Virus record (IMG/VR): IMGVR_UViG_3300010160_000077
Span: 1 to 45,948 of that record
Length of the DNA: 45,948 bases
Direction: 5' to 3' (one strand)
Source: a virus
Both the position numbers and the translations under genes were made by a program. Positions 29,959 to 45,948 of the stretch are shown one piece after another; within the stretch, counting starts at the first letter, position 1; each line of letters opens with the position of its first letter. Under the pieces are notes generated by a model that was not told where the DNA came from, made no database searches, and was given only the letters and a program-made list of their open reading frames with translations.

Positions 29959-29987
29959 TAGACTTCCAACGTATTTTGTAGTATAAT
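29959..29987 (+). promoter_or_regulatory. Sigma70-like promoter of the first accessory unit
   Basis: TAGACT (29959-29964), a 17-base spacer, then a perfect TATAAT (29982-29987). The -10 box ends six bases before the ATG at 29994, so the predicted transcript starts at about the A of ATG and is leaderless. It differs from the TAAATA elements before the structural genes. Confidence 0.6.
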
Positions 29988-29993
29988 ACAATT

Positions 29994-30308
29994 ATGGATA
30001 CCAATCAACTAGTAGAACATGGCCGTGCTAGATTTGAACATGCTCAGTCTCGACGTGTACTTAAAGAAAAATATCAAGCCAAACTGACCTTTGCCTATAA
30101 CGGTGGAATGTGGTCAGCTGGTCCTGAACTTATCAATACATTAACAGCGTCCGTGGAAACGGGCCAACAAGGCTTGGTTCTTCTTGACTTGTACGATACA
30201 CCTGTTAGAGTAGATTATCGAGAACTACTAACATTGGCACAACAACGCTGGCAAGAACAAATGACAGCCTGGTTGATTGAACACGACGAACTAAACAAAA
30301 ACAGATGA
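29994..30308 (+). CDS. Small conserved phage protein of unknown function
   Basis: A 104-residue soluble protein. Its body reads HGRARFEHAQSRRVLKEKYQ, FAYNGGMWSAGPELI, VLLDLYDTPVRVDYRELL and AQQRWQEQMTAWLIEHDEL: helix, short beta hairpin, helix. I recall similar small proteins beside tail-fibre genes in T4-like marine phages but know no function. The arginine/lysine-rich first helix could bind nucleic acid or a partner protein; this is conjecture. Its TGA overlaps the next ATG (ATGA). A promoter with the -10 box six bases upstream predicts a leaderless message. Confidence 0.65.
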   Translation: MDTNQLVEHGRARFEHAQSRRVLKEKYQAKLTFAYNGGMWSAGPELINTLTASVETGQQGLVLLDLYDTPVRVDYRELLTLAQQRWQEQMTAWLIEHDELNKNR

Positions 30309-31108: not shown

Positions 31109-31874
31109 ACGTGGCTATCTAATACCAGCCATTGATAATGCTACAACAGACTATCTGGCCTGTGCTGTCCAGCTGGCTCGTAGTATCCGTGAGTTTCATC
31201 CTGATGCACAAATTGCCGCTGTTACAACACGACGATTAAGTGATCCAGTATTTAATCATGTGATTCCTTTGCCACATGGTGATCAAAGCGCCACAGAAAA
31301 CAAACAATGCAACGACTGGCAGGTGTTTGAAGCTAGTCCATTTAGACAAACTATCAAACTAGAAGCTGACATGATTGTTGCAAGTCCCGTTGATCATTGG
31401 TGGACCTTGTTTGAACGGCGTGATGTGGTGATTAGTCAAGGCTGTAGAGACATTTATGATCAGCCTGCTCGATCCAGATTTTACAGACAACTATTTGATC
31501 GCAATCATCTTCCAGATGTTTACAATGCTATCACTTATTGGCGCCTGAGTAAAACAGCAAGAGATTTTTTTGATCTAGTAAGAAGCATATTTGAAAATTG
31601 GTCTGACTATCAACGCTGTCTCTTAATGCCCGATGCAGAACCGTCCACAGATGTGGTATATGCTATGGCCGCAATCTTAATGGGGCCAGACCTTGTTACA
31701 TTGCCTTCGGGACTTGGTCCTACAATAACTCACATGAAACAACACATAATACCAACGCAAACACCGGATTGGACTAAAGAATTAGTATGGGAATATCCCA
31801 ACCTTAGGATACAGACAGTGGCACAATGGGGAGTAATACACTACAACACAAAGACTTGGCGTGCTGATGGATGA
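31092..31874 (+). CDS. GT-A-fold glycosyltransferase-like protein, paralogue of the previous gene
   Basis: The frame opens with tandem TTG codons at 31089 and 31092. AGGAG at 31081-31085 gives better spacing to the second, so I place the start there (260 residues). It overlaps the previous gene by 17 bases. The layout follows the upstream paralogue: YLIPAIDNATTDYLACAVQL, A-A-V-T-T-R-R-L, then IKLEADMIVASP, where E-A-D replaces the usual D-x-D. YNAITYWRLSKTARDFFDLV follows, and an N-W-x-x-Y-x-R pattern is shared with the neighbour (W-T-H-Y-R-R there). E-A-D is seen in some GT-A proteins, but it weakens a firm activity call. It probably acts with the upstream protein. Confidence 0.55.
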   Translation: MPVLAERGYLIPAIDNATTDYLACAVQLARSIREFHPDAQIAAVTTRRLSDPVFNHVIPLPHGDQSATENKQCNDWQVFEASPFRQTIKLEADMIVASPVDHWWTLFERRDVVISQGCRDIYDQPARSRFYRQLFDRNHLPDVYNAITYWRLSKTARDFFDLVRSIFENWSDYQRCLLMPDAEPSTDVVYAMAAILMGPDLVTLPSGLGPTITHMKQHIIPTQTPDWTKELVWEYPNLRIQTVAQWGVIHYNTKTWRADG

Positions 31875-32226
31875 TACTACAAAAAACTTTTGGCAGGCGT
31901 TCCAGGACTGGCAGGCTACACCTGTGGAATACAAGCCACCCATTCAACGACTCTATTACGATGACAACGGCATGCCATTATTTTACGTGGATCAAGATCT
32001 TCCAGGTAATTATATTGATCTAGATGGTGCCAGTTACGTTGTAGCAGACATGAATATCCGTGTTGTTGACGGTAAAATTGTAAAAATTAAACAGCCTGTT
32101 TATATAAAAAAATTAATGCCTGATTTGGAATCGGGCACATGTTGCCATCCTGATACTGTATGCATAGTAGTCGATGACACTGAACCTTGTACCAAATGGA
32201 ATTTAAAAACTTATGAAAAAAATTGA
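31867..32226 (+). CDS. Hypothetical protein, about 119 residues
   Basis: I chose the ATG at 31867; a GTG two codons earlier (31861) is possible. The product starts MDDTTKNFWQAFQDWQA. It continues with RLYYDDNGMPLFYVDQDLPG, a short beta domain (YIDLDGASYVVADMNIRVVD) and a C-terminal part with three cysteines (G-T-C-C-H-P-D and a single C near the end). No known family comes to mind, though the D-x-x-G-x-P-L-x-Y opening looks conserved-phage-like. It overlaps both neighbours, so it belongs to the same message as the glycosyltransferase-like genes. Confidence 0.5.
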   Translation: MDDTTKNFWQAFQDWQATPVEYKPPIQRLYYDDNGMPLFYVDQDLPGNYIDLDGASYVVADMNIRVVDGKIVKIKQPVYIKKLMPDLESGTCCHPDTVCIVVDDTEPCTKWNLKTYEKN

Positions 32227-33139
32227 CATAGCTGATCTAGATTGTATCTACCTAACATATGATGAACCCGAACGTGAAGAGTTCTGGGTCAAAATCCGTA
32301 ACATGATTCCTTGGGCTCTCAGAGTTGATGGAGTTAAAGGATCGGATGCTGCACACAAGGCAGCTGCGGCCGCAAGTACCACTGAACGTTTTGTTCTAAT
32401 TGATGGTGACAACTTGCCAGAAGAAAAGTTTTTTAATCTCACTCTAGAGTTACCTGACGCCCAATGGGAAAGTGCTGTGTTTCGCTGGCGTGCCCGTAAT
32501 CATGTCAATGGGCTTATGTACGGCAATGGTGGATTAAGTTCATGGACTAGAACATTTGCCAATGAAATGAAAACACACGAAGCCACGGATGGTCGTGTGG
32601 CTACCGAAGTAGAGTTTTGTTTTGATCCGTTATACTGGGCCATGCACGATTGTTATAGCACAACATACCCCAATGGATCAGCATTCCATGCTTGGCGTGC
32701 GGGCTTCAGAGAAGGAGTCAAAATGTGTCTCAATCAAGGAGCTCGACCAAGTCTTGCCGAGTTCAAGACACGAGTACATCATAGAAATCTAGATCATTTG
32801 ACCATTTGGCACAACGTAGGACGTGACGTAGAACATGGCATCTGGGCAATAGCCGGCAGCAGAATGGGCACTTACATGACCATGTTGACTGAATGGGATC
32901 ATTGCCTGGTACAGGATTTTGATGCTCTTGCTGAAATATATAAAACGGTAGACGGACACAATCCTGAAATAATACTGGGTCGTGTGGCTGAAGACCTATA
33001 CAAACAATTGGACTTGCCCATGACCGTGATAGACGCACAGGCCAGCAGGTTCTTTAAGCATCACTATCGTAGCAATTGGCACAACCGCGGAGTCATGACA
33101 CGTGAGATTGATGTGATTAGAAGTCAGGAAGGTTGGTAA
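32213..33139 (+). CDS. Possible glycosyltransferase, conserved in marine phages
   Basis: The 308-residue protein starts KKIDIADLDCIYLTYDEPER. The pattern Y-L-T-Y-D-E-P, VDGVKGSDAAHKAAAAAST and RFVLIDGDNLPEEKF gives a GT-A-like reading. The strand ending in D-G-D-N would be the metal-binding D-x-D site, and the K-G-S-D-A-A-H-K helix would contact the nucleotide. Homologues with this K-G-x-D-A-A-H-K signature occur in T4-like cyanophages, to my recollection without known activity. The C-terminal half is helical and rich in W and H (GRDVEHGIWAIAGSRMGTYM). It is the last gene of the first accessory unit, followed by a 113-base gap. Confidence 0.5.
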   Translation: MKKIDIADLDCIYLTYDEPEREEFWVKIRNMIPWALRVDGVKGSDAAHKAAAAASTTERFVLIDGDNLPEEKFFNLTLELPDAQWESAVFRWRARNHVNGLMYGNGGLSSWTRTFANEMKTHEATDGRVATEVEFCFDPLYWAMHDCYSTTYPNGSAFHAWRAGFREGVKMCLNQGARPSLAEFKTRVHHRNLDHLTIWHNVGRDVEHGIWAIAGSRMGTYMTMLTEWDHCLVQDFDALAEIYKTVDGHNPEIILGRVAEDLYKQLDLPMTVIDAQASRFFKHHYRSNWHNRGVMTREIDVIRSQEGW

Positions 33140-33218: not shown

Positions 33219-33247
33219 TTGATTTAACAAGACAAATACTGTATAAT
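33219..33247 (+). promoter_or_regulatory. Sigma70-like promoter of the radical SAM unit
   Basis: TTGATT (33219-33224), a 17-base spacer and a perfect TATAAT (33242-33247). The -10 box ends five bases before the ATG at 33253, so initiation would fall on or next to the start codon and give a leaderless mRNA. The arrangement repeats that of 29959-29994. Confidence 0.65.
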
Positions 33248-33252
33248 AAACT

Positions 33253-35190
33253 ATGATTATTGCTTTTTATCCTGGTGCCGGTGGCAACCGCTACCATCAC
33301 TATTGTCAAGGCCAACGCACATTTGATAGCAACGTCACTTATGATCATTTATTAAAAAATCAAGATTTTAAATATCGTTATTTAGACCACAGTTCTATTG
33401 GACTTGCTGACCAAGAATTGATATTGACGCATTGTGTCAATGTTCCTTTGCTTAAAACACTTTTTCCAAATCAAACAGAAATTGTTGTCATACAAGCAGA
33501 CCTTGTGCAAAGTTTACGTAGAGAATGGTATCTAGCAGACCAGCATCGAGACAAAAACATGCCCGACAAACTTGAACATGCTAAAGCACATTGGTCATAC
33601 CATAAAAAATATTATACAGAATATCCAATGGATATCACCGGATCCACAGTCGTGGTTGATCTTGCCGATGATAGTGATTTTTCTAAAATCATGCAAGGCG
33701 AACTTGACAGTATCCAATCATCAGAATACGATCAAGCAGTCGCAGAATTCATGCCACATGATTTATCAAATATAGCGGGCGATAAGATCGTGGAAGGATT
33801 TAAAAGTAAATTTCTTGACGATGCCGAAACAATGAAACAACGCTTGGACAAGGTAAGTCCAAGCATGTGTCTAGCCAAGTGGAAACAAGTGAGTTTGCAC
33901 CTGGCTACTGGTCTCAATAACTCATGCTATCATCCGCCGTTGCATACGATACAATTAGAAGATATACAGCGTAGTCCCAGTGGATTACATAATACAGCAT
34001 ATAAAAAAGAACAACGTAAACTAATGCTCGATGGCAAACGTCCCAGTGAATGTAGCTACTGCTGGACCATGGAAGATGCCGGTAAACTGAGTGATAGACA
34101 TTATCGTTCAGGTGAGTCTTGGGCTGCTCGAGACTTTGGAAAAATTGTTAGTGGAGAATGGAACGATGATGTCATACCTAGCTATGTTGAAGTCAATTTT
34201 AATCATGCTTGTAATCTGGCATGTAGCTACTGTAGTCCTCAATTTAGTTCAACTTGGCAACAAGAAATGGATCAGCATGGCGCTTACCCTACTAGCACTA
34301 GACACAATGATCCTAGTCACTTTGTTGGTCGCAACAGGCCTATTCCAGTTCGCGACCACAATCCTTACGTAGAAGCATTTTGGGCTTGGTGGCCCACACT
34401 ATATCCTGAACTTGAACACTTCCGTATGACCGGTGGAGAACCTTTACTAGATAAAAATACCTATAGAGTGTTTGACTATGTGCTGGCCAATCCCAAACCC
34501 AACCTGCATTTAAATGTGACTAGCAACTTTAGCGTAGATGAAAAGTTGTGGCAAAAATACAAAGGCTATGTGAAACAGTTGTGTGAAGGTGAACAGATCG
34601 AACACTTCATGCAGTACATAAGTTTGGACTCATGGGGCACCCAAGCTGAATACATCAGACACGGACTGGACTTCGATCTCTTATGGGATCGAGTAAATCA
34701 ATTCCTAACTGAAATACCCTATCGCAACAGCGTGACATTTATTGTGACCATGAACAATCTTTCAGTGACTGGACTCAGCAGTTTGATGTCTGGCATCTTG
34801 GGCCTCAGACAGCTTTACAGCACAACTTACCAGCGTGTGTGGTTTGATACTCCAGTTCTAAGACAGCCACATTGGCAAAGTCTACAACTGTTGCCCGAAA
34901 GCTATTGTGATCAACTGGAACAGTTGTGGGCCTGGATGTTGACTCAAGCAGAAACTCCTGACACAAGATTCCATGGATTTAAAGATTATGAACTGTCCAG
35001 ACTGGATCGAGACATTGCCTGGATGCGAGCTGGACAACAGCTAGATCCTGTGTATATACAACAGAACAAGGCAGACTTTTATAGATTCTTCACGGAAGCT
35101 GATCGTAGACACGGCACCAACTTCTTGAAGACCTTTCCGGAAATGCGTGCATGGTGGTCAGAATGCGAGTATCATGCTCGGCAATCGTAA
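33253..35190 (+). CDS. Radical SAM enzyme with extra N-terminal domain (rSAM 1)
   Basis: A 645-residue fusion. Residues 1-195 form a separate domain that opens IIAFYPGAGGNRYHHY; the glycine loop resembles a nucleotide- or PAPS-binding turn, but this is uncertain. From about 200 a radical SAM unit of the N-terminal-twitch type begins. Auxiliary-cluster cysteines are C206 (M-C-L-A-K-W), C225 (S-C-Y-H-P-P), C267 and C270 (C-S-Y-C-W). The SAM-cluster motif is C320-x3-C324-x2-C327 (CNLACSYC), and the SAM-binding G-G-E-P is near 393. Such enzymes cleave SAM to a 5'-deoxyadenosyl radical. The two-cluster layout is common in peptide- and sugar-modifying members. The 444-residue gene at 37295 is its close relative without the N-terminal domain. 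First gene of a long overlapping unit. Confidence 0.8.
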   Translation: MIIAFYPGAGGNRYHHYCQGQRTFDSNVTYDHLLKNQDFKYRYLDHSSIGLADQELILTHCVNVPLLKTLFPNQTEIVVIQADLVQSLRREWYLADQHRDKNMPDKLEHAKAHWSYHKKYYTEYPMDITGSTVVVDLADDSDFSKIMQGELDSIQSSEYDQAVAEFMPHDLSNIAGDKIVEGFKSKFLDDAETMKQRLDKVSPSMCLAKWKQVSLHLATGLNNSCYHPPLHTIQLEDIQRSPSGLHNTAYKKEQRKLMLDGKRPSECSYCWTMEDAGKLSDRHYRSGESWAARDFGKIVSGEWNDDVIPSYVEVNFNHACNLACSYCSPQFSSTWQQEMDQHGAYPTSTRHNDPSHFVGRNRPIPVRDHNPYVEAFWAWWPTLYPELEHFRMTGGEPLLDKNTYRVFDYVLANPKPNLHLNVTSNFSVDEKLWQKYKGYVKQLCEGEQIEHFMQYISLDSWGTQAEYIRHGLDFDLLWDRVNQFLTEIPYRNSVTFIVTMNNLSVTGLSSLMSGILGLRQLYSTTYQRVWFDTPVLRQPHWQSLQLLPESYCDQLEQLWAWMLTQAETPDTRFHGFKDYELSRLDRDIAWMRAGQQLDPVYIQQNKADFYRFFTEADRRHGTNFLKTFPEMRAWWSECEYHARQS

Positions 35191-36226
35191 ACTTATTGTA
35201 GATGAATTTTGTGAAGTAAAAGAATTTACGCAAAATTTCCAAGATGGATATTTTTGGAATTTTGCCGAACACGAAATTTGTGCAGGGGCAGTATATATTA
35301 TCAGTCGTCAGCAGTTTGCTGAGAACATTGTAAAAATAAAACAGCTGGCCCAAGATCAAATCATACTACCGGTGCTGGGTAATCCTGCCGAAGGCTCTGA
35401 CACCATGTTCAAACAAGCACAGGCTTTGGGAATTTTAGAACTAGTTCAACAAGGAAAAATTATTATTATTTCCGGAGGTGATCTACCCGAACACATTCCG
35501 CATCTGTTCTATGAAAACTTTTTACCCAAGATCCTGGATTACGATGAAAATTTACAAGCCATTGCACAGTACAAAAAAAGTTGGAGTACTGATAGACCCT
35601 ATAAATTTTTATTTTTAAATGGTCGAGGGCGAGATCATCGTAGACAATTATTGGCTAGACTACACCCTTTACTTGATGTAGCAATCTGGAGCAACTTGGA
35701 TTCGGCAGCTGGGCCAATCAAGCTACTGGATCCAGAGCACGAGTTTGAGTTTTATCGGCACAATCTCGATATTGATCCGTCGGGTTTTGTAAAATATTCA
35801 TTGTTCGATAACAATTGGGGAGAAATATATCTCAATGCACAACCATATACAGACAGTTATTTCAGTCTAGTGACAGAAACTGTATTCGATTATCCGTACA
35901 GTTTCAGGACAGAAAAAATCTGGAAGCCGATTGCAATTGGACATCCGTTTGTTGTGGCCAGTAATGCTGGCTACTATCGTGACTTACACAACTTGGGATT
36001 TAAAACTTTTGGGGATCTGATTGACGAAAGTTTTGATCTAGAAATGGACAATGTTAAAAGAATGGCAAAACTCATACACCAAATAGAATGGTTATGTCAA
36101 CAAGATCTTGCTAAATTTGTACAAGAGTCGTATAATGTATGTAAATACAATCAATCACTGCTTGCCGAACTTGGACCCAAGATCCGTGCAGAATTTCCCC
36201 AGAAGCTCCTAAACTTTATAAAATGA
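35174..36226 (+). CDS. GT10/exostosin-like glycosyltransferase (paralogue a)
   Basis: I chose the ATG at 35174 (350 residues, 17-base overlap with the radical SAM gene); a GTG at 35147 is possible. The N-terminal half is a variable Rossmann-like domain. The C-terminal half has the signature SFRTEKIWKPIAIGHPFVVA followed by Y-Y-R-D-L-H-N-L-G-F-K-T-F. The E-K-x-x-K-P-[IL] segment, then [HR]-P-[FL] and L-x-x-x-G-F-x-[ST]-[FY], is the kind of donor-site block seen in GT10 (fucosyltransferase-like) and exostosin-like enzymes. Two further paralogues lie at 36223 and 41476. It probably transfers a sugar in the pathway coded by this cluster. The substrate is unknown. Confidence 0.55.
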   Translation: MLGNRKLIVDEFCEVKEFTQNFQDGYFWNFAEHEICAGAVYIISRQQFAENIVKIKQLAQDQIILPVLGNPAEGSDTMFKQAQALGILELVQQGKIIIISGGDLPEHIPHLFYENFLPKILDYDENLQAIAQYKKSWSTDRPYKFLFLNGRGRDHRRQLLARLHPLLDVAIWSNLDSAAGPIKLLDPEHEFEFYRHNLDIDPSGFVKYSLFDNNWGEIYLNAQPYTDSYFSLVTETVFDYPYSFRTEKIWKPIAIGHPFVVASNAGYYRDLHNLGFKTFGDLIDESFDLEMDNVKRMAKLIHQIEWLCQQDLAKFVQESYNVCKYNQSLLAELGPKIRAEFPQKLLNFIK

Positions 36227-37302
36227 TCACTACAATATCTAAAACTTTTCCAGATCATTGGATTTATGGCAAGTATGAACAAGAAATTCTTGCCGGCATA
36301 CAACGTCAGATTGATGCACGATTCCCTGATCAAAACAATCTGTTGTTCAACACCACTTGGCGAGAAAATCCTGAACATGATGTGGAACTACAGCAGTGTC
36401 TTGCTGATGCTGTGCCTGTTGACAATTTGTTTGTGGTATCCACTGTGGATTATTTTTTACCACATCACGAGCAAATGGTACTGGACATGATTGAGCGCCT
36501 GTCAGTAAAGCACACCTACTTCCTGGGCAACTTTGATACTCCTAGTCCTAGATGGGCTCCTGACAATAGCACGACAATTTATTTTAATTTTTTTGCCATC
36601 GTGTGTAGAGATAAGTTTGAAAAATATCAGCAGGATGAATTAATTTTGACCGACCCAAAGTATCTGTTTATCAGTTACAATCGCAAACCATATGCACATC
36701 GTTTGGCATTTGTAAAAAAATTAATTGAACACAACGTAAAAGATCTTGGAGTGGTCACTCTAGGTCGGGCATTTCCTGGTAACACTGGACCTGACAAAGA
36801 TCTTTATTTTAGCATTGGTGAAAAGAATCAAGACTACGTGAAATATGGACACTGGTACAGTGACAGTCCCGAAGCCACGTCTCACGATATTCCACATGAC
36901 TTGTTTAGCCTACACAACATGCACTATTGGAAACATCATTTTTTACACATAGTGGGCGGAACCAGTCAGTCAAGATGGAATCAATTCCTTACACAGATTG
37001 ATTTCAAACCCATCATTGGAATGCGGCCGTTCCTGATCAATGGACAAACACAAAATTACGAATTCTGGCGACGCAATGGATTCCGTACATTCAATCATTA
37101 TTTTCCAGGATTGGATTTTGAAAAATCTGACACCGTGCATGCAACCCTAATAGATGCAATACGACAACTTTCTGCGATGAGTTCTAGTGAGTTATTGGCC
37201 ATGTACAACATGATGTTGCCGGACTTGATACACAACAGACAACGCTGGTATGCCTGGGCCAATGAACAAAAAAATCAAGTGGAGAATTTGTTTGATGAAT
37301 GA
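36223..37302 (+). CDS. GT10/exostosin-like glycosyltransferase, divergent (paralogue b)
   Basis: The 359-residue product overlaps the previous gene by four bases (ATGA). It has the same layout as the upstream protein: a variable N-terminal domain, then YLFISYNRKPYAHRLAFVKK and a C-terminal IDFKPIIGMRPFLINGQTQN, followed by Y-E-F-W-R-R-N-G-F-R-T-F. The usual glutamate-lysine pair before K-P-I is replaced by I-D-F, so the donor site may be altered or the protein may be a non-catalytic partner. Its pairing with paralogue a suggests a complex or two successive transfers. Confidence 0.5.
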   Translation: MITTISKTFPDHWIYGKYEQEILAGIQRQIDARFPDQNNLLFNTTWRENPEHDVELQQCLADAVPVDNLFVVSTVDYFLPHHEQMVLDMIERLSVKHTYFLGNFDTPSPRWAPDNSTTIYFNFFAIVCRDKFEKYQQDELILTDPKYLFISYNRKPYAHRLAFVKKLIEHNVKDLGVVTLGRAFPGNTGPDKDLYFSIGEKNQDYVKYGHWYSDSPEATSHDIPHDLFSLHNMHYWKHHFLHIVGGTSQSRWNQFLTQIDFKPIIGMRPFLINGQTQNYEFWRRNGFRTFNHYFPGLDFEKSDTVHATLIDAIRQLSAMSSSELLAMYNMMLPDLIHNRQRWYAWANEQKNQVENLFDE

Positions 37303-38629
37303 TTTAGAATTCCGCCAGCAAGTATTGGACACCAAAAGTTCCAGCTTTTGTGCAGCCAAATGGTACAATGCTACCATATGGTTAGGATCAGGACAGACTA
37401 CCAGTTGCCATCATCCATTGCCACATGCTGTTGATCCAGAAGAGCTTGAACACAATCCCAGTGCGCTACACAACACGCAACGCAAGAAAATGGAACGTGA
37501 GCAGATGCAAAAAGGCGAACGTCCCAGCGGCTGTGAGTATTGTTGGAAAATAGAAGACATTGGTCGAGATAACATCAGTGACCGTGTGTACAAGAGTCGA
37601 ATTTACCCCTTAGAGGATTTATCATATGCATACCGAACACCACCAGAAACAGACATTAACCTACGCACCCTGGAAATCTCGTTTGACCGTACTTGCCAAT
37701 TGGCTTGTAGCTATTGTAACCCTGCTTTCAGTAGCACATGGGTTAGGGACATACGACAAAGCGGCCCCTATACCAATCTGGTGTCTGATGGGCGCAATCA
37801 CTTTACTCATATTCATGCTAGTAGTCAACCGTTCCGCCGTGGTGAAACAAATCCGTATGTGGAAGCATTCTTCAAGTGGTGGGAAACAGACCTACACCAA
37901 AGCCTCCAAGAGCTAAGGATCACTGGCGGTGAGCCCTTGATGAGCGGCGACACCTGGAAACTACTAGATTGGTTCAAGAACAACAAAGGGCGCAGCCGGA
38001 CACGACTGGCTATCAACAGCAATTTAAGCATGGCCTATGACATAGTTGATCGTGCCATCACAGCATGCGAAGGCACTGAACTGGATATCTATACCAGCAT
38101 GGAAAGCGTAGGCTCACAAGCTGAATACATCCGAGACGGCCTGGACTATGACCGCTGGTGTTACAACATGACACAGATCATGGATGCCAAGCAGGTGCGT
38201 GGGCTACATGTGATGTGTACTATCAACGCACTTTGTTTAGAAAGCCTTCCTGAATTGCTTACTCAACTCATGTCATGGAAAAGCCTTGCCGGTGCGGACT
38301 TTCCAAGTTTTACATTAAATATCTTGCGTTTCCCCAGCTTTCAAAGTGCTTTGGTATTGCCTGACGAGATTAGAACACATCATCAACAACGCCTACAAAC
38401 TTGGTTAAACACGTGGGATCGTAATATCCATTTACACGAGCATGAACGTAATCATGTGCAGCGTTTAATCGATTACCTAGACGTAGTTAAAACTCCACAC
38501 AGTGAAGCATTTGATCGTGTGAGTTTGTTAAATGATTTCAAACAATTTTATACACAGTATGATCAACGTCGTGGGCAAGATTTTGCAAAAACATTTCCTA
38601 ACTTGGCAGATTGGTACAACACATTATGA
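37295..38629 (+). CDS. Radical SAM enzyme with N-terminal twitch-type cluster (rSAM 2)
   Basis: I chose the ATG at 37295, with GGAG at 37281-37284 and an eight-base overlap with the previous gene; the frame is open from 37250. The 444-residue protein is collinear with the C-terminal 440 residues of rSAM 1. It has C19 (F-C-A-A-K-W), C38 (S-C-H-H-P), C80 and C83 (C-E-Y-C-W), C134-x3-C138-x2-C141 (CQLACSYC), and G-G-E-P near 211. Shared text also includes an N-P-S-A-L-H-N-T stretch, N-P-Y-V-E-A-F and a Q-A-E-Y-I-R-x-G-L-D-[FY]-D segment. The two are clear duplicates that probably act on related substrates. Confidence 0.8.
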   Translation: MNDLEFRQQVLDTKSSSFCAAKWYNATIWLGSGQTTSCHHPLPHAVDPEELEHNPSALHNTQRKKMEREQMQKGERPSGCEYCWKIEDIGRDNISDRVYKSRIYPLEDLSYAYRTPPETDINLRTLEISFDRTCQLACSYCNPAFSSTWVRDIRQSGPYTNLVSDGRNHFTHIHASSQPFRRGETNPYVEAFFKWWETDLHQSLQELRITGGEPLMSGDTWKLLDWFKNNKGRSRTRLAINSNLSMAYDIVDRAITACEGTELDIYTSMESVGSQAEYIRDGLDYDRWCYNMTQIMDAKQVRGLHVMCTINALCLESLPELLTQLMSWKSLAGADFPSFTLNILRFPSFQSALVLPDEIRTHHQQRLQTWLNTWDRNIHLHEHERNHVQRLIDYLDVVKTPHSEAFDRVSLLNDFKQFYTQYDQRRGQDFAKTFPNLADWYNTL

Positions 38630-40278
38630 CCTTAGATGAAAAAGTAGCAGAGTACAAAACAAAATACACAGTACTAGCTGTTATCGACCTGGATCACTGG
38701 CATGATTTAAAAATATATCAGCAAGATCCGTGGTTGCGTGATACATTGACATCATTGCATCAAGAAGTTTATACAAATGATCAACGCATTTTATTAACCT
38801 TGTCAAGATGTAACAACGCAGAAATACTGTTAGAACGACTACAACATTGGTTATACAACGTAGATATTTCTAGTTTTTTTATTGCAATACTATCAAACGA
38901 TCCTGATATTGCTCAATTATGGAAATCTGGTCCAGACATGTCCGGTATAACTTTTGATTTTTTCCAAAGTGAAAAGTATATCGATGATAAAGATCAAGCT
39001 ACGTCGAGTTATAATAATAGCGAGTTGGTAAACCCAATAGATCTTGACGGTCGAGAACAATTTTTATTAAAGGAATCAAAAACATTTTGTATGTATCCGT
39101 GGATACATCTTCATACTTATCCTACTGGTGAAGCATATCCGTGTTGCCAGGCAGAAATGAAAGTGGGTTCAATTGGAAACAGCCGTATCAATACACTCAG
39201 TGAAATATGGAATAGTCCTAAGCAAAGACAACTACGACAGGATATGTTAAGCGAAACATTTAATCCAACTTGTGGAAGATGTTATGAACAAGAAGATAGC
39301 GGATTTTTTAGCGGAAGACGAAGCGCAAATAAACATCATGGTCACCACATTAAAAAAGTCAAAGACACTCAAGCAGATGGCACTGTACAAGACTTTAAAA
39401 TGACCTATTGGGACATACGCTTCAGTAACTTGTGTAATTTAAGTTGCCGTAGTTGTGGACATATCTTTAGCAGCAGTTGGTACCAGGATCAGGTTAAATT
39501 GGCTGGAGGAGATTGGAAGGATCGTAATCAAGTGTTGAACTATGCCGGACGTACAGAAACAGACATGTGGGAACAGTTGATACCACATTTGGATTATGTA
39601 GAGCAGATTTACTTTGCCGGTGGCGAGCCCTTGATGATGAAGGAACACTATAATATTTTGGATGAGCTAGAACGCAGAGGACGTTTTGATGTACGGTTAA
39701 TCTACAATACAAACTTTACACATATCAAACTAAAAGACCGTACAGTCTTTGATTACTGGAAACGATTTAAATCAGTAGCAGTTGGAGCAAGTCTAGACGC
39801 TATGGGCCCACGTGCTGAATATATAAGAAAAGGCACAGACTGGTCTGTAGTAGAATCAAATCGTAAACAAATGCTGGAAGTATGCCCAGAAGTTGATTTC
39901 TATATCAGTCCTACACTCAGCATTATGAATGCGTTACATTTACCAGACTTCCATCAAGAATGGGTTGATCAAGGCTTGTTAAAACCGCAAGATCTCAACA
40001 TAAATATCTTACAAGATCCGTTTCATCTCAGGATTGATCTGGCCCCAAAAAATTACAAGGATCGTATACACGCTCGATTTCAAGAACATCTAGAATGGTT
40101 ACGTCCTTTAGATCCATTGCAAAGAGCCACTGTGGGTTTTGAGAGTGCTATTAATTTTATGTCAGCTGCTGACAACACACATTTGCTAGATACATTCTGG
40201 CGCAAAACACATGAACTTGACAACATCAGAAATGAAAATATATTGACAACTATCCCTGAATTGAAGGCATTACTATGA
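38626..40278 (+). CDS. Radical SAM enzyme with unknown N-terminal domain (rSAM 3)
   Basis: Start at the ATG of an ATGA junction (38626); 550 residues. Residues 1-145 are an unrecognised alpha/beta domain (TVLAVIDLDHWHDLKIYQQD). Then the second radical SAM subtype of this cluster begins: C155 (F-C-M-Y-P-W-I-H), C173-C174 (P-C-C-Q-A-E-M), C216 and C219 (C-G-R-C-Y-E-Q-E), and C270-x3-C274-x2-C277 (CNLSCRSC). G-G-E-P-L-M-M lies near 332. The P-W and C-C spacing is shared with rSAM 4 and 5. It is a likely catalyst of a radical step on a glycan or peptide. The substrate is not visible from sequence. Confidence 0.8.
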   Translation: MTLDEKVAEYKTKYTVLAVIDLDHWHDLKIYQQDPWLRDTLTSLHQEVYTNDQRILLTLSRCNNAEILLERLQHWLYNVDISSFFIAILSNDPDIAQLWKSGPDMSGITFDFFQSEKYIDDKDQATSSYNNSELVNPIDLDGREQFLLKESKTFCMYPWIHLHTYPTGEAYPCCQAEMKVGSIGNSRINTLSEIWNSPKQRQLRQDMLSETFNPTCGRCYEQEDSGFFSGRRSANKHHGHHIKKVKDTQADGTVQDFKMTYWDIRFSNLCNLSCRSCGHIFSSSWYQDQVKLAGGDWKDRNQVLNYAGRTETDMWEQLIPHLDYVEQIYFAGGEPLMMKEHYNILDELERRGRFDVRLIYNTNFTHIKLKDRTVFDYWKRFKSVAVGASLDAMGPRAEYIRKGTDWSVVESNRKQMLEVCPEVDFYISPTLSIMNALHLPDFHQEWVDQGLLKPQDLNINILQDPFHLRIDLAPKNYKDRIHARFQEHLEWLRPLDPLQRATVGFESAINFMSAADNTHLLDTFWRKTHELDNIRNENILTTIPELKALL

Positions 40279-41483
40279 ACATTCCACATGATCAATTTTG
40301 TGTGTTGCCCTGGGTCAGTTTGGAAACCAGCCCAATTGGCACAGTGAGGCCATGCTGTCTGGCTGAAGAAGAAATTGTTGATGACGCAGGTAACAAGTTT
40401 GATCTCAACACAGCAAACTTTAGCAACATACAAACCAGCCAGTACATGCAGGATCTAAGACAACAGTTTTTAGACCAAAAGAAACCAGCCGCTTGCAGAA
40501 AATGCTGGCGAGAAGAATCAGCCGGTCGTACTAGCAAACGTATGCATACTTTGGACAGACTCAAGCACATGATTACCGATTCTGAATGGACTGCGGATGC
40601 CAAACCCTTGATGTTTTTGGATCTAAAACTAGGCAACATCTGCAATCTCAAATGTCGTATATGTGGCTCATGGAGTTCTAGTACCTTTGCCACCGAAGAA
40701 CTAGCCGATCTGCCACCAGGAGAAGATCGCAAAAGTAATCATCACTACCATATGCTCAAGCAAGGAGCGTGGCCTAGAGAGAATCCCACGTTCTGGACTG
40801 AAATTGATCAGGTAGCGGATCAAATACAGTACATAGAATTTACCGGTGGTGAGCCATTCATGATCAAGGAACACTTTGATCTGTTACAAGGTCTAGTCGA
40901 TCGAGGTCTAGCCGGGCAGATTGAAATACATTATAACACCAATGGCACGCAATGGCCCGAACACGCAGAGGCAATCTGGAAACATTTTAAAACTGTGGAA
41001 ATAGCATTCAGTATTGATGATGTGGGCGATAGATTTGAATATCAAAGATCAAATGCTGTATGGTCAGAAGTATGCGATAACATTGAACGTTTTAGACAAA
41101 TGCGCAATCGTAATCCACGCATCAGATTACAAGTATGCACCACAGTAAATGTGTTCAATGTTTACTACATAGAACAAGTGGCCAATTGGATCAACACACA
41201 AAGTTTTGATTTTGTGTACTGGAACATGATGCACGAAGCCTACTACTTTAGCATCAGCACTTTGCCCGAATCAGCCAAACAGTCAATTGCAACAAAATTA
41301 CAATCTGCACAAGTTGATGCACGAACACAACATGAGTTTGCACAAATCATAGACTTCATGATGCGTGGTGTCAGCCTAGATGGCAACATATTGCGTATGC
41401 GTGTAGCAGATCTTGATCGCAAACGCAATCAAAATTTAACACAGGTGCAACCTGAACTGGCTGCCTTGATCGACTATGCGTAA
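40275..41483 (+). CDS. Radical SAM enzyme with N-terminal twitch-type cluster (rSAM 4)
   Basis: 402 residues, starting at an ATGA overlap with rSAM 3. Cysteines: C9 (F-C-V-L-P-W-V-S), C27-C28, C74 and C77 (C-R-K-C-W-R-E-E), then C123-x3-C127-x2-C130 (CNLKCRIC). The SAM-binding FTGGEPFMIKEHFDLL and a later Y-N-T-N-G-T strand fit the radical SAM barrel. It is the minimal form of the second subtype, without any added domain. All metal-binding residues expected for an active two-cluster enzyme are present. Confidence 0.82.
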   Translation: MNIPHDQFCVLPWVSLETSPIGTVRPCCLAEEEIVDDAGNKFDLNTANFSNIQTSQYMQDLRQQFLDQKKPAACRKCWREESAGRTSKRMHTLDRLKHMITDSEWTADAKPLMFLDLKLGNICNLKCRICGSWSSSTFATEELADLPPGEDRKSNHHYHMLKQGAWPRENPTFWTEIDQVADQIQYIEFTGGEPFMIKEHFDLLQGLVDRGLAGQIEIHYNTNGTQWPEHAEAIWKHFKTVEIAFSIDDVGDRFEYQRSNAVWSEVCDNIERFRQMRNRNPRIRLQVCTTVNVFNVYYIEQVANWINTQSFDFVYWNMMHEAYYFSISTLPESAKQSIATKLQSAQVDARTQHEFAQIIDFMMRGVSLDGNILRMRVADLDRKRNQNLTQVQPELAALIDYA

Positions 41484-42495
41484 ACTGGTTTACATGTGGC
41501 TTCCTGGTCAAGCACCTGAATGGTTCCGTGACGCATTGCCAGAAAATTACCCAATAGAAATTTATGATCCAGCGAAAGAGTACGATCTAGACACCGTTTT
41601 TTATTATGACCTGTACGGATACTATCGCGAAAATATCAAGACTTATCTAGAGCGTGGACACCGAGTGATTCTTGACGCAAAAAATGAACATTATATTCAA
41701 TATCGTTTTCATTGGATATTTTTATTGTTCTTGCAATACCCAGGACAAGGCATGATTTTGATCAGTGGCGATCGTGCCAAACAGATCCCTGGACTCCAGA
41801 TACAAGCCACTCCGTATTGGTACTGGATCATGGACCAACCTAGATTACAAGCAATAGGATTAGATCAGTATCACCCTGTTCCTACGCAAGAGAAAAAATT
41901 CTTCATGAGCCTGGGCAAGACTCGAATAGCTCGTGATTATCTGTACGACAGGCTTGGAGATCTCTTACAAGACAGCGTACACAGTTATTTGGGTCGCGGT
42001 AGGTACTTACCAAATGACCGAAAACAAGACGAGGTTATAGGAATAGGTTTTGATCGGTATGTAAACACCGACTGGTTAGATGCAACTTGTTTTACCTTGG
42101 CTGTTGAAACTTATGTAGATGATTCTGATCTATCTGGATTTAGCCTGACTGAAAATGATGGTTTTTTCTTGTGCGAAAAAACCTATAAGCCATTGGCTTG
42201 CAAGCATCCTTTGTTGATGGTTAGCACCCAGGGAAATTTATCACATCTACGCAATCAAGGGTTTGAATCATATCCTGAGCTATGGGACGAAAGTTATGAT
42301 GATATTCCAGATTGGCAAACAAGAATAGATCGCATAATACAGATAGTGCATGACTTTGATCCGCGTACTCTTGATAATCCTGTGATTCAAGAAAAGCTAT
42401 TGTATAATAGCGTAAGATTTTTTGATAAAGATTTAACAACACATTTATTAAATAGCACCGTAATCAATCCGTTACTGGAGTTTGTTAATGCTTGA
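41476..42495 (+). CDS. GT10/exostosin-like glycosyltransferase (paralogue c)
   Basis: A 339-residue protein overlapping rSAM 4 by eight bases. Its N-terminal half opens RKLVYMWLPGQAPEWF. The C-terminal half has FLCEKTYKPLACKHPLLMVS, followed by L-S-H-L-R-N-Q-G-F-E-S-Y. This block matches paralogue a closely (E-K-x-x-K-P-[IL]-x-x-x-H-P). The intact E-K-T-Y-K-P suggests an active donor site. It is separated from paralogues a and b by three radical SAM genes, so the families alternate along the message. Confidence 0.55.
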   Translation: MRKLVYMWLPGQAPEWFRDALPENYPIEIYDPAKEYDLDTVFYYDLYGYYRENIKTYLERGHRVILDAKNEHYIQYRFHWIFLLFLQYPGQGMILISGDRAKQIPGLQIQATPYWYWIMDQPRLQAIGLDQYHPVPTQEKKFFMSLGKTRIARDYLYDRLGDLLQDSVHSYLGRGRYLPNDRKQDEVIGIGFDRYVNTDWLDATCFTLAVETYVDDSDLSGFSLTENDGFFLCEKTYKPLACKHPLLMVSTQGNLSHLRNQGFESYPELWDESYDDIPDWQTRIDRIIQIVHDFDPRTLDNPVIQEKLLYNSVRFFDKDLTTHLLNSTVINPLLEFVNA

Positions 42496-43780
42496 TTCAC
42501 CTACCTTGTGCATGGCACCCTGGACTCATACGTACTTGAGTCCACAGACCGAACGCCGGCTGTGTTGTGCCAGTCGTGAACCAGCACAGAACTTTGAACA
42601 GTATATAGATACCAGTTCCGGCACTGGCCGTTACATTCCCGTCACTCTAGATGACCACTGGAACAGCGAGCACATGCGGTCAGTACGCAAGAGAATGATG
42701 GCTGGAGAAACACTGCCCGAGTGTGATGTTTGTAACAGCAAACTGCTCAACACTGACGTGTATAGGAGTTACTTCAATAGCCTGTTTGGTCATAAGCGTG
42801 ATCAGATTGAATTGACCACAGATGCCACAGGACATACTAGTATGTTACCAGTCAGCTGGGATTATAGATTCAGCAACCTTTGTAACTTTAAATGTCGCAT
42901 GTGTGGTGACATGTTGTCAAGTGCTTGGGAAAGTGAACAACGACAGCATGACATGATTGATTGGACCAACACAAAAAACAGTTGGATGCGGCCAGAAGTC
43001 AAAGCTGAGATAACTCAATTCCAAGACACGCAGATTGAAGCCGAGTTTGCTCAAGCAGTAGAGCAACACAGGGTAGAAGAAATATACTGGGTAGGCGGAG
43101 AGCCACTCATGTATGAACAACACTGGCGCTATATGCGCAGAATTATTGAACTAGGAGATGGACAACGTGTTTACGCTAGATATAATACTAATCTTAGCCG
43201 TGTCAACTACGGTAGTAGCAATCTGTATCGCGATATTTTATCTGGGCTACGAGACTGGCAGATCTGTGCAAGCCTTGACGGAACCGGACAGATTGGAGAA
43301 TACATCCGTACAGGACTCGATTACCCTGCATGGCTTGCGAACTTTAAGCAAGGAGTACAAATAGCACGCCATTCAAGGCAGATGCGTATAGACTTTACGC
43401 TTACCTTACCTGGCATGTTTGAAGTGAAAAATATCACACGTCTAGCACAAGAATTACAGGTTGATATACTAGCCAAAGTGGTATTCTCATTCTCACCAGA
43501 CATTGTGATGAGCCCCTTGGCCTTGCCAAGGACCATATTAGATCCTTGGCTAACGGAATTGATTGAGCAAACCTCAGGAGCCATGCAGTCCGTATTAACA
43601 CAGTTACGATCGCGACCGACCTTTGAGGAACAATGGCCTGACACTTATCTAGCCGGTATCAAGAAAGGCAAAAAGAGAATATTGCAGCTTGAAAAAATCC
43701 GTAAAGACCTGTATACTATGAGTAATATCCTGGCATCGAGACCAGCTGTATTAGAATGGTGGAACCAAATTGACAATTAG
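42488..43780 (+). CDS. Radical SAM enzyme with N-terminal twitch-type cluster (rSAM 5)
   Basis: Start at ATG 42488, supported by GGAG at 42477-42480 and an eight-base overlap; the frame is open from a TTG at 42482. The product is 430 residues. Cysteines: C8 (L-C-M-A-P-W-T-H), C26-C27, C79 and C82 (C-D-V-C), C132-x3-C136-x2-C139 (CNFKCRMC). G-G-E-P-L-M-Y follows near residue 206. A long insertion after the SAM motif (HDMIDWTNTKNSWMRPEVKA onward) is partly shared in position with rSAM 3. It is the fifth and last radical SAM gene seen here. All cluster ligands appear intact. Confidence 0.82.
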   Translation: MLDSPTLCMAPWTHTYLSPQTERRLCCASREPAQNFEQYIDTSSGTGRYIPVTLDDHWNSEHMRSVRKRMMAGETLPECDVCNSKLLNTDVYRSYFNSLFGHKRDQIELTTDATGHTSMLPVSWDYRFSNLCNFKCRMCGDMLSSAWESEQRQHDMIDWTNTKNSWMRPEVKAEITQFQDTQIEAEFAQAVEQHRVEEIYWVGGEPLMYEQHWRYMRRIIELGDGQRVYARYNTNLSRVNYGSSNLYRDILSGLRDWQICASLDGTGQIGEYIRTGLDYPAWLANFKQGVQIARHSRQMRIDFTLTLPGMFEVKNITRLAQELQVDILAKVVFSFSPDIVMSPLALPRTILDPWLTELIEQTSGAMQSVLTQLRSRPTFEEQWPDTYLAGIKKGKKRILQLEKIRKDLYTMSNILASRPAVLEWWNQIDN

Positions 43781-44855
43781 AGTCGTACTAAGGAACCCGC
43801 TGGATTCAACTGATCAAGTGGATTATACAATACGAGCAGAAGATCATGAGCTGGCACAGGACTGGCAACATGCTCTTAAAGATCTATTGCAATCGGGTAA
43901 CCTGTTAGAAAAAAACTTTTGTTTTATGGGATTCCCTGACACAGCAAGGACCTTGGACTATTTGTGCAACGAGCTTAATCAACACGTTAAAACAATTAAT
44001 GCATTTTTTCCTGATTACCGTATTGCAGAATCATTTAGTCCTGATAATGTATTAGCAGGAGATTACGCCGACCATGGCATTAATCATGACGTAATGAACA
44101 TATTACATAATCATTTTGAAATATTACAAGGTACTGTTTGGAGTCTTAGCGAATATTACAAACGAGCAGACTATGAAACAAAATACGCCATTAGACAGTT
44201 AAACAATATCTGTCATGAAATGGAGAATCTTATACTGAGTCAACGTAAAGCAAAAACTAGTCCATTTTGGGTCAGACCCAGTCAAATTACTACATTTTTA
44301 AATGCTCCTAGACTAGACCTTAAACCTGTCCATAGACAAGGATTTGCTACTAACGGATATGATAGAGTACTAGGCGGAGTGTATATGCACTGGACTCAAA
44401 TAGGAAAGACTCTATATGAAGTTTTTAAAGATGAAGGTGCTCCGGTATTGACTGACGCGGTGTGCGAAGCTATTACTGAATTGCGTTATTATTCCGGTGA
44501 ATTTGATGTGGAATGGGGCAACAATGTAACTTTTGCTGGTGACAATCCCTGGCACAATCGGGACCAATTGGCTTTCAAGGCATGGCTGATAGAAAACAAT
44601 CGAGATCCATTGGATCTCAATCTAAGCCTAGGATACTTACCACTAGGGCAAGTGGACCTGCGCAGCAGTTTTGGTACTGCTAAAAGTTCTGACATATGGG
44701 AAATACTGTCAGCACATTTGGATATCTATAGTATAGAAATTGACGGTGTATCACAAAAATTCAATTACTGTTGGACCGACGCTAATTATAAACAAATGCA
44801 AATTGATATGATGAAACCTGGATATGATTACTCAACTAAAGGAGCACGACCATGA
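43770..44855 (+). CDS. 361-residue protein of unknown function
   Basis: The start is a TTG at 43770 overlapping rSAM 5 by 11 bases; the next ATG (43927) would remove a well-formed first strand (TIRVVLRNPLDSTDQVDYTI). I do not recognise the family. The N-terminal half is helical with N-F-C-F-M-G-F-P-D and a long N-E-L-N-Q-H-V-K-T-I helix. The C-terminal half has GEFDVEWGNNVTFAGDNPWH, LGYLPLGQVDLRSSFGTAKS and a beta-rich end. Conserved W, H and D residues in the second half could form an active site, but no known motif is present. It is coupled to the 33-residue gene by an ATGA overlap. Confidence 0.55.
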   Translation: MTIRVVLRNPLDSTDQVDYTIRAEDHELAQDWQHALKDLLQSGNLLEKNFCFMGFPDTARTLDYLCNELNQHVKTINAFFPDYRIAESFSPDNVLAGDYADHGINHDVMNILHNHFEILQGTVWSLSEYYKRADYETKYAIRQLNNICHEMENLILSQRKAKTSPFWVRPSQITTFLNAPRLDLKPVHRQGFATNGYDRVLGGVYMHWTQIGKTLYEVFKDEGAPVLTDAVCEAITELRYYSGEFDVEWGNNVTFAGDNPWHNRDQLAFKAWLIENNRDPLDLNLSLGYLPLGQVDLRSSFGTAKSSDIWEILSAHLDIYSIEIDGVSQKFNYCWTDANYKQMQIDMMKPGYDYSTKGARP

Positions 44856-44953
44856 ACTGGATTAAAAACATAATTAACCGTATTCGACTAGAAATACGAT
44901 ACCGCAAGAAATTAAAAGAATTACGCAAACGAGATCCTTTTATCTATAAATGA
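44852..44953 (+). CDS. 33-residue basic peptide gene
   Basis: A strong AAGGAG (44838-44843) precedes the ATG, and both ends are ATGA overlaps with the neighbours. The product opens MNWIKNIINRIRLEIRYRKK and ends L-K-E-L-R-K-R-D-P-F-I-Y-K. It is a highly basic, amphipathic helix with a short aromatic tail. A C-terminal D-P-F-I-Y-K looks like a conserved motif rather than random sequence; from memory, similar small proteins occur in marine phages. It lacks cysteine, serine and threonine. It could be a membrane- or RNA-binding helix, a subunit of a neighbouring enzyme, or a precursor peptide for the radical SAM enzymes. None of these is shown. Confidence 0.6.
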   Translation: MNWIKNIINRIRLEIRYRKKLKELRKRDPFIYK

Positions 44954-45948
44954 AATTGCAGAACATCCTTGGCATCAGTGCCGGGTTCCATGACGCAGCC
45001 GCCTCGGTAATCAACACCCGGGGTGAAATCTTGTTTGCTGGACATAGCGAACGCTATAGTAAAAAGAAAAACGATGCCGACATACATCCGGGATTGCTGT
45101 GTGATCTTGGCCGATATGCAATTGATCATGTGGCCTATTACGAACGACCTTGGAACAAACAACTAAGACAACTATATTCAGGGCAAGGTATTGAATGGTC
45201 AAAACTAACCGTACGACAGATACTCAATCAGCAATTACACGGTTATTTTTCGCATACTACCGTCAGTTCGTACAACCATCATTTGAGTCATGCCGCCGGG
45301 GGATTCCAAACTAGCACGTTTGATCGTGCCACAGTTGTGGTCATTGATGCCATAGGCGAATGGGACACTGTGAGCATATGGGGTGCTGAATATCGGAATG
45401 GCCAGGCAAGATATCGAAGACTTTGGCGACAACAGTATCCACACAGCATAGGACTATTTTATACTGCCATGACTGATAGGATAGGACTTAGACCCATGGA
45501 AGATGAGTATGTACTAATGGGCATGGCGGCTTACGGCACTGATCGGTTGACCAAACATCTTGATGATCTAGTCATTGAAGATTTAGACGAGATACAATTA
45601 CGACAGAACTTCCATGCCGGAGTAGATGAAAACTTTTTGGCGTCAACTGAAAATGAAGATATTGCCACCGCAACACAGCAAGTAGCAGAAACTTTGATAT
45701 ATAGTATTATGCGCCGAGCAAGAGAATTTGCGTGGAGCACAAATCTGGTATATTCGGGCGGGGTCGCCCTAAATTGTTTGGCAAATAGAAATCTTGGAGA
45801 GTATTTTGAAAAAATTTGGATCATGCCTTGTCCTGGTGATAGTGGCAGTAGTCTTGGCGCGGCCGCCTTGGCCTACGGAGGAAGGTTACAGTTCGACCAT
45901 GCATACCTTGGTCACGACATCGGTGGACCATATCCTGTCGACGCCGTA
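44950..45948 (+). CDS. NodU/CmcH-type carbamoyltransferase, 3' end outside window
   Basis: The ATG at 44950 overlaps the peptide gene (ATGA) and the frame is open to the window edge (333 codons). Family usual length is about 550-600, so the C-terminal domain is missing from view. N-terminal ASKHA-type motifs are clear: LGISAGFHDAAASVI (H14, D15), HHLSHAAGGF with metal-binding histidines near 110-114, VVVIDAIGEWDT, SGGVALNCLANRNL near 269, and PGDSGSSLGAAALAYGG. These enzymes make carbamoyl-adenylate from carbamoyl phosphate and ATP and pass the carbamoyl group to a hydroxyl, often of a sugar. It would add an O-carbamoyl group to the product of the upstream pathway. Confidence 0.85.
   Translation, partial: MKLQNILGISAGFHDAAASVINTRGEILFAGHSERYSKKKNDADIHPGLLCDLGRYAIDHVAYYERPWNKQLRQLYSGQGIEWSKLTVRQILNQQLHGYFSHTTVSSYNHHLSHAAGGFQTSTFDRATVVVIDAIGEWDTVSIWGAEYRNGQARYRRLWRQQYPHSIGLFYTAMTDRIGLRPMEDEYVLMGMAAYGTDRLTKHLDDLVIEDLDEIQLRQNFHAGVDENFLASTENEDIATATQQVAETLIYSIMRRAREFAWSTNLVYSGGVALNCLANRNLGEYFEKIWIMPCPGDSGSSLGAAALAYGGRLQFDHAYLGHDIGGPYPVDAV

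Follow-up and report, generated by a model that had tools for sequence, protein, structure and literature searches.

A phage-borne, ordered set of five radical SAM, glycosyltransferase-like and carbamoyltransferase genes looks like a surface or sugar modification assembly line

Introduction

The hypervariable regions that adjoin the tail fibres of pelagimyophages hold glycosyltransferases (GTs) and radical SAM (rSAM) cassettes (PMC7029224). The locus described here likewise sits beside fibre genes in T4-like phages and combines GTs with rSAM genes, but the pelagimyophage region varies in content between genomes, whereas here a core of eight genes is fixed and includes ORF9, the small peptide p33 and a carbamoyltransferase. 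The T4-like TARA_ERS488813_N000010, which encodes 12 radical SAM proteins together with an A-type Fe-S carrier (PMC5332604), is comparable as a large, rSAM-rich T4-like phage with such a carrier; the passage of that paper concerned with these genes discusses them as Fe-S proteins, with no mention of an operon or pathway. Among isolates, Vibrio phages K566 and K567 alternate N_Twi rSAMs with GT8/GT4-like genes in one region, as seen here, but their sets are not orthologous to ours: an ORF9 profile finds nothing in K566, and neither p33 nor a carbamoyltransferase was found in the stretch examined. An earlier comparison with P-SSM2 proved weak, as the nol carbamoyltransferase examined in that phage is flanked by purM and by hypothetical genes that precede gp43, outside any rSAM/GT cluster. 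Our literature search found no description of a five-rSAM operon behind tail-fibre genes such as these large, uncultivated water phages carry.

We analysed 45,948 nucleotides of viral DNA, the window (IMG/VR record IMGVR_UViG_3300010160_000077, positions 1 to 45,948). With confidence that is about evenly balanced, we propose that the genes from 29994 to the end of the carbamoyltransferase form an operon for the synthesis and attachment of an unusual carbamoylated sugar or glycoconjugate.

Extent and setting of the operon

The eleven open reading frames annotated in a first pass at 33253-45948 were recovered with the same coordinates and order (Table 1). Each was said to overlap the next by 4-17 bases, and this is so when the best start codons are used: overlaps with the preceding gene are 17 bases for GTa, 4 for GTb, 8 for rSAM2, 4 each for rSAM3 and rSAM4, 8 for GTc, 8 (ATG) or 14 (TTG) for rSAM5, 11 for ORF9, and 4 each for p33 and the carbamoyltransferase. 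The unit itself had been drawn too short, as its true start lies upstream, at 29994, and takes in three more GT-like genes. Rfam and tRNA scans gave no match.

Table 1. Features of the modification operon and its fibre-gene neighbourhood, in window coordinates
Feature	Coordinates	Strand	Evidence and remarks
4594-aa tail protein, upstream synteny anchor	12897..26681	+	relatives at the same place in 10/10 jumbo contigs
fib466, tail-fibre-like protein	27546..28946	+	PHROG tail fibre/virion structural matches; synteny
fib318, Ser/Thr/Gly/Ala-rich small fibre-like protein	28965..29921	+	synteny; alignment of 13 sequences
Sigma-70-like promoter match TAGACT-17-TATAAT	29959..29987	+	consensus match only; directly 5' of the ATG of the 104-aa gene
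104-aa protein, first gene of the unit	29994..30308	+	syntenic in 10/10 jumbo contigs
267-aa GT-A-like protein, LDADY motif	30305..31108	+	motif only, and synteny
261-aa GT-A-like protein, LEAD motif	31089..31874	+	motif only; PHROG 1903 (unknown function); synteny
121-aa protein of unknown function	31861..32226	+	synteny
308-aa GT-A-like protein, DGDN motif	32213..33139	+	motif only; directly 5' of the rSAM array in relatives
Second sigma-70-like match TTGATT-17-TATAAT	33219..33247	+	consensus match only; in the unit's only 113-base gap
rSAM1, N_Twi radical SAM	33253..35190	+	NF033640, 307 bits; orthologue group of 62 loci, support 1.0
GTa, GTc-related putative GT-B glycosyltransferase	35174..36226	+	aligned with GTc; variable slot rSAM1-rSAM2
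GTb, GTc-related putative GT-B glycosyltransferase	36223..37302	+	aligned with GTc; variable slot
rSAM2, N_Twi radical SAM	37295..38629	+	NF033640, 302 bits; orthologue group of 79, support 1.0
rSAM3, N_Twi radical SAM	38626..40278	+	NF033640, 410 bits; orthologue group of 82, support 0.997
rSAM4, N_Twi radical SAM	40275..41483	+	NF033640, 347 bits; orthologue group of 87, support 0.88
GTc, putative GT-B glycosyltransferase	41476..42495	+	AlphaFold pLDDT 93.7; variable slot rSAM4-rSAM5
rSAM5, N_Twi radical SAM	42488..43780	+	NF033640, 282 bits; directly 5' of ORF9
ORF9, conserved partner protein	43770..44855	+	154 viral relatives; pLDDT 90.9; invariant H113, E117, H149, E150
p33, 33-residue basic peptide (..YRKKLKELRKRDPFIYK)	44852..44953	+	91 distinct relatives; mostly accompanies the carbamoyltransferase
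O-carbamoyltransferase (TobZ/NodU/NovN type)	44950..45948	+	Carbam_trans_N; cut by the contig end

The operon lies directly 3' of tail-fibre genes in the window and in all ten jumbo contigs tested, the position of a tail-fibre-adjacent variable region of T4-like phages. The gene immediately before it is fib318; fib466, present in one to several copies in relatives, is preceded here and in many of them by the T4-type late motif ATAAATA. We propose that transcription of the unit starts at the upstream sigma-70-like match, and TGTATAAT occupies the equivalent place in L180, L181 and L182, although such matches are no more frequent in the region than in shuffled sequence. The modification unit seems to own a sigma-70-like promoter, whereas the fibres have late motifs, so the two may not be expressed jointly, which counts against our proposal.

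Glycosylated phage DNA is well established, and the GT and carbamoyltransferase genes could in principle serve it, by glycosylation and carbamoylation of a previously modified base. We consider such DNA hypermodification very improbable. No computed result points to it; inspection of the unit revealed neither a base hydroxymethylase nor a TET-like or nucleotide-specific gene, the nearby thymidylate synthase and dCMP deaminase genes match ordinary families, and the unit is located with fibre genes, not replication genes.

A fixed core with exchangeable insertions

In 89 related viral loci the core genes follow the order rSAM1-2-3-4-5-ORF9-(SGNH)-p33-(SGNH)-carbamoyltransferase, always on one strand, and 49 of these loci hold the full order. 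Loci recruited by a different gene, rSAM3, show the same arrangement. The five rSAMs belong to five distinct orthologue groups, each of which occupies a set position and has one member in the window, while GT-like and SGNH genes around the fixed core come and go among relatives. The diversity of ORF9 is real: all 61 sequences sampled differ by >5%, with a median identity of 62%. The five rSAMs, ORF9, p33 and the carbamoyltransferase are shown to form a conserved core with exchangeable GT-like and SGNH insertions in large T4-like phages, and the dedicated multi-step pathway suggested by the first-pass annotation is supported both by the gene neighbourhoods and by the clustering of the rSAMs. 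The conservation points to a modification that these phages need.

Hypervariability is a feature of the regions beside the tail fibres of T4-like phages (PMC7029224), and the contents of the GT/SGNH slots do differ between loci, as expected if unrelated accessory genes had simply gathered by chance. For the core this is refuted: its eight genes retain their order, strand and orthology in dozens of diverged contigs, so it is not random cargo. A chance gathering has almost no probability left, and then only for the inserted genes.

No cultured phage yielded the cluster, either in a DNA search or in protein searches with ORF9 and GTc. A tblastn search of 50,697 phage records with ORF9 was empty, so a study confined to isolates would overlook this protein.

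Five distinct radical SAM enzymes

All five rSAMs pass NCBIfam NF033640 ("twitch domain-containing radical SAM protein"), with 281-410 bits against a curated cut-off of 170 bits. This is a subfamily with no named reaction, and five fixed orthologue groups per operon are absent from its description, as far as this can be checked; the gene set defined here makes the role of its twitch-type rSAMs testable. As previously claimed, each protein retains the CxxxCxxC triad, GGE and upstream cysteines, which number four and are of twitch type (C..C plus two singles), as in the family at large. Among 413 rSAM relatives the four N-terminal cysteines are kept in 96-100% and the triad and GGE in about 100%, so at the level of sequence the loss of cysteine ligands that would have refuted the first-pass reading does not occur. 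rSAM1 has an extra N-terminal domain of about 200 aa, and rSAM3 an N-terminal extension common to only part of its relatives. Viperin identity (NF038283) was considered and rejected, with at most 35 bits against a cut-off of 180 and only weak pVip matches.

What these enzymes act on is the main point of choice. The majority of SPASM/twitch rSAMs characterised so far have peptide or protein substrates, which weighs against a sugar substrate. Such modification is the topic of PMC9012708, and here the five rSAMs could act sequentially on a fibre, tail or other phage protein, with the GTs and the carbamoyltransferase decorating the modified residues. The position directly 3' of fibre genes, one of which encodes a Ser/Thr-rich protein, fits this account, and the rSAM profiles match SkfB as well as BlsE. 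We nevertheless regard it as a doubtful, if serious, alternative: neither a recognition element nor a conserved modified motif was identified, and N_Twi rSAMs, of which there are 7-16 per contig, are also encoded elsewhere in these genomes, far from the fibre genes, and in other phages close to sets of sugar genes.

ORF9, p33 and the carbamoyltransferase

ORF9 and p33 each represent an uncharacterised family that has a clear partner. ORF9 adjoins rSAM5 in 85 of 86 loci, and its invariant residues H113, E117, H149 and E150 may form a metal site. Its confidently predicted fold has no match in the PDB, by profile or by fold, and in BFVD its fold matches are phage proteins only. One of these suggested a relative in Agrobacterium phage Atu_ph07, where the profile search was empty and a single weak rSAM match was found; a cellular origin was similarly discarded, as only three MAG contigs in 84,980 genomes carry a relative and these look viral or mixed.

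The p33 gene changes freely at synonymous sites and is conserved at the protein level under strong purifying selection, which indicates, from codon evidence, that p33 is a real, translated peptide. The same free synonymous change rules out RNA- or promoter-level conservation of its 3' end. tblastn of a p33 relative against phages had no match, but the BLAST low-complexity filter probably masks this query. Of 120 loci found by the p33 motif alone, 97 have a carbamoyltransferase within five genes and 95 have no ORF9 nearby; in other phages p33 adjoins GT genes where this rSAM array is absent.

A translated, strongly conserved short peptide encoded two genes from an rSAM invites comparison with RiPP pathways, with p33 as the precursor that the rSAMs convert into a small peptide product. 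This seems distinctly improbable. RiPP clusters tie a precursor with a variable core to an rSAM maturase, whereas p33 is nearly invariant throughout and follows the carbamoyltransferase, mostly travelling with it even where ORF9 is absent; it is therefore probably not a RiPP precursor.

The carbamoyltransferase identified in the first pass is indeed an O-carbamoyltransferase of the TobZ/NodU type, though the window holds only 333 of its 494 aa before the contig ends. The full gene, in a near-identical 91-kb contig, encodes both Carbam_trans_N and Carbam_trans_C and has NovN, GdmN and TobZ as PDB relatives; the HHxxH metal motif is present in the window as HHLSH at residue 110. NovN, GdmN and TobZ act on sugar or macrocycle hydroxyls. 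The phage enzyme shares both domains and the motif with TobZ, NodU, NovN and GdmN, but it is shorter (494 aa) and p33 directly precedes it.

Solved relatives that include TobZ, GdmN, StrB1-type enzymes and SxtG recall aminocyclitol and guanidino natural products, whose enzyme types (amidinotransferase, DegT aminotransferase, carbamoyltransferase, rSAM) are all represented among these loci. A soluble aminocyclitol-, antibiotic- or cofactor-like small molecule, directed against competitors or serving host metabolism, is nonetheless distinctly unlikely, given that neither an exporter nor a resistance gene was noticed in the unit and that the amidinotransferase occurs in only 12 of the related loci, outside the operon.

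Sugar-gene company and a proposed pathway

The "glycosyltransferase-like" label given to GTa, GTb and GTc holds in part. None has a Pfam match, and neither GTa and GTb nor the GT-A-like genes match a curated family (the 267-aa protein has no Pfam or NCBIfam match). The predicted structure of GTc is loosely GT-B-like: its best PDB match is the SdgB glycosyltransferase (E 1.9e-4, probability 1.00), followed by WaaG, tll1591 and POGLUT1, with many further GT-B enzymes below significance and a best TM of about 0.4, hence a loose match. For GTa and GTb the one link to GT-B is their sequence alignment with GTc.

The carbohydrate company of the rSAMs, also part of the original claim, is supported. 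In related loci a sugar aminotransferase (DegT), an NDP-sugar epimerase and a UDP-glucose/GDP-mannose dehydrogenase are encoded close to these genes or to p33; GT8 and GT4-like genes alternate with N_Twi rSAMs in a different gene set in the cultured Vibrio phage K566; and 28 of 70 GT-recruited loci lacking ORF9 have an N_Twi rSAM ≤5 kb from a GT. In marine virus record MH319727, an amidinotransferase, SGNH, carbamoyltransferase and N_Twi rSAM recur in another order, which also fits our proposal. No gene for NDP-sugar synthesis lies inside the operon, which counts against our proposal.

In the carbamoylated-sugar pathway that we favour, the five rSAMs would modify a sugar or glycan in successive radical reactions. 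Dehydrogenation, epimerisation and deoxygenation are the chemistry of twitch/SPASM sugar rSAMs, and any of these may be used. ORF9 would partner rSAM5, GT-A- and GT-B-like enzymes would put the glycan together, and the carbamoyltransferase, with the small p33 as partner, would cap a hydroxyl; SGNH enzymes in some phages may add or remove acyl groups. The acceptor would most likely be the phage's own fibre or virion surface, or alternatively the host envelope. A constant core would then supply a constant group, and the changing GT and SGNH genes a varied outer part that could escape host recognition or competing phages. More tentatively, five non-redundant rSAMs acting in series with a new-fold partner, ORF9, may make a group not known from any organism, which would be carbamoylated, displayed at the surface of phage or host and diversified through exchangeable GT cassettes.

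Five ordered, orthologous rSAMs in one viral operon, kept across dozens of diverged large phages, are an unusual investment in oxygen-sensitive chemistry. Phage-borne Fe-S carrier genes accompany the rSAM operon in the largest contigs: each of the five contigs that reach 289 kb or more has two A-type Fe-S carriers.

A conserved, dedicated operon

All eleven genes named in the first-pass annotation were found on the + strand, with overlaps of 4-17 bases given best starts. The radical SAM enzymes rSAM1-5 score 281-410 bits each (cut-off 170) against NF033640, the NCBIfam model for twitch domain-containing radical SAM proteins (N_Twi), and the remaining four are merely 20-29% identical to rSAM4. 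In a tree built from 413 relatives at 87 loci there are five large groups, each with nearly one member per locus and exactly one of the window's enzymes. Group support is 1.0, 1.0, 0.997, 0.88 and 0.42, the lowest being that of rSAM5, a group nevertheless backed by its position immediately 5' of ORF9 in 85 of 86 loci. The cysteine ligands noted earlier are kept: four N-terminal cysteines, the CxxxCxxC triad and GGE occur in 96-100% of sequences. rSAM1 has an additional N-terminal domain (~200 aa, beginning FYPGAGGNRY, P-loop-like by eye), as does rSAM3 (~130-150 aa, common to only part of its orthologues).

Gene order was compared across 89 viral loci, nearly all recruited by ORF9. Core genes always share one strand, and the full order rSAM1-2-3-4-5-ORF9-p33-carbamoyltransferase occurs in 49; most other loci are apparently cut off where the locus ends, or contain a single duplication. 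Independent recruitment by rSAM3 gave the identical order, complete in 26 of 80 loci despite just 6 kb of flank. Sampled ORF9 sequences have a median pairwise identity of 62%, with no pair >95%, and the loci are therefore not repeated samples of one phage; a single broad lineage could nonetheless include all the contigs. The variable insertions occupy definite slots: glycosyltransferase (GT)-like genes in the rSAM1-rSAM2 and rSAM4-rSAM5 intervals, and SGNH/GDSL-like genes around p33. The first-pass observation is confirmed, in a stronger form than first claimed: the pathway is conserved as well as dedicated.

The unit's genes were correctly recognized, but its extent was set too small, as it continues upstream. 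In 10/10 jumbo contigs the order is a 4594-aa-type tail protein, fibre genes, a 104-aa gene, GT-A-like genes (a motif-based assignment) with a small gene, and the rSAM array. T4-type ATAAATA late motifs belong to the fibre genes, and a TGTATAAT-like element lies immediately 5' of the 104-aa gene ATG in the window and several relatives; as promoters, these are just matches to a consensus, no more numerous in the region than in shuffles. TATAAT lies 6-7 bases 5' of the ATG at both unit breaks and would therefore yield nearly leaderless messages.

The window is a complete IMG/VR record (45,948 bases). A 91-kb contig reaches beyond both its ends, with 24 differing positions across the overlap.

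ORF9, p33 and the carbamoyltransferase

ORF9 has 154 viral relatives. Family searches yielded no convincing family, and its AlphaFold model (pLDDT 90.9) had zero PDB matches and phage-only matches in BFVD. Invariant H113, E117, H149 and E150 sit on two helices, where we would guess at a metal site. ORF9 paralogues directly follow rSAM4 in three contigs, which suggests a pairing of ORF9-type proteins with N_Twi enzymes. One contig assigned to a Pacearchaeota MAG encodes an ORF9 of 36% identity, which precedes SGNH-like, IscA-like and fibre-like genes, and the rSAM1-5 array is absent beside it. Another copy is reported with a single internal TGA, through sequencing error or decay.

The carbamoyltransferase, the last gene of the window, is truncated by the contig end. 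A full-length copy has 494 aa and two carbamoyltransferase domains; by sequence comparison, its closest solved structures are NovN, GdmN and TobZ.

The 33-residue peptide p33 is conserved at the protein level, with synonymous sites changing freely. A DNA search by its C-terminal motif alone recruited 120 loci, some short; a carbamoyltransferase lies within five genes in 97, and a nearby ORF9 is absent from 95. Other phages encode p33 amid GT, epimerase and NDP-sugar dehydrogenase genes. The peptide is more likely a small carbamoyltransferase partner than an rSAM substrate.

Carbohydrate links

Our best reading, held with about even confidence, is that the product is a sugar, radically modified and carbamoylated, destined for a surface; the main rival is a protein-modifying pathway. 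The fold of GTc is GT-B-like. DegT aminotransferase genes lie close to the cluster in 60 of 89 loci and epimerase genes in 46. N_Twi enzymes of cultured Vibrio phage K566 alternate with GT8 and GT4-like genes, and a marine single-cell virus record groups an amidinotransferase, two SGNH-like genes, a carbamoyltransferase and an N_Twi-like enzyme. Pelagimyophage GTs and radical-SAM cassettes adjoin tail fibres, the GTs being interpreted as modifying the host O-chain (PMC7029224), and some cyanophages possess carbamoyltransferases (PMC3037559). We found no description of the operon among open-licence papers.

NF033640 matches number 7-16 per contig among 18 long contigs searched, and each of 5/5 contigs ≥289 kb encodes two A-type Fe-S carriers; one T4-like ocean virus that encodes an A-type carrier has 12 radical SAM genes (PMC5332604).

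Coordinates of features in and around the operon
Feature	Location	Strand	Basis
rSAM1 N-terminal domain	window 33253-33850		
rSAM3 N-terminal domain	window 38626-39070		
TATAAT to ATG, unit breaks	window 29982-29994, 33241-33253		
ORF9, Pacearchaeota-binned contig, with following genes	L171:5010-7539		
ORF9 with internal TGA	G018:C1:123438-124472		
Amidinotransferase, AGAT/StrB1/SxtG kind	L167:13857-14876 = 91-kb contig 53857-54876	-	PDB sequence matches
1395-aa protein, WxPxPxDPPYIYxFGNQW-type repeats	91-kb contig 57149-61336		
Two more radical SAM enzymes, B12-binding domains	91-kb contig 80505-82520, 83252-85282		
Tryptophan-halogenase-type flavoprotein-like gene	91-kb contig 70314-71891		by eye
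TctC-type binding protein-like gene	91-kb contig 77406-78302		by eye

The amidinotransferase sits just 3' of the carbamoyltransferase and had no Pfam or NCBIfam match. Relatives of the 1395-aa repeat protein are encoded near the cluster in other loci, and TctA/TctC-like genes apparently lie alongside ORF9 on a further MAG contig (L170).
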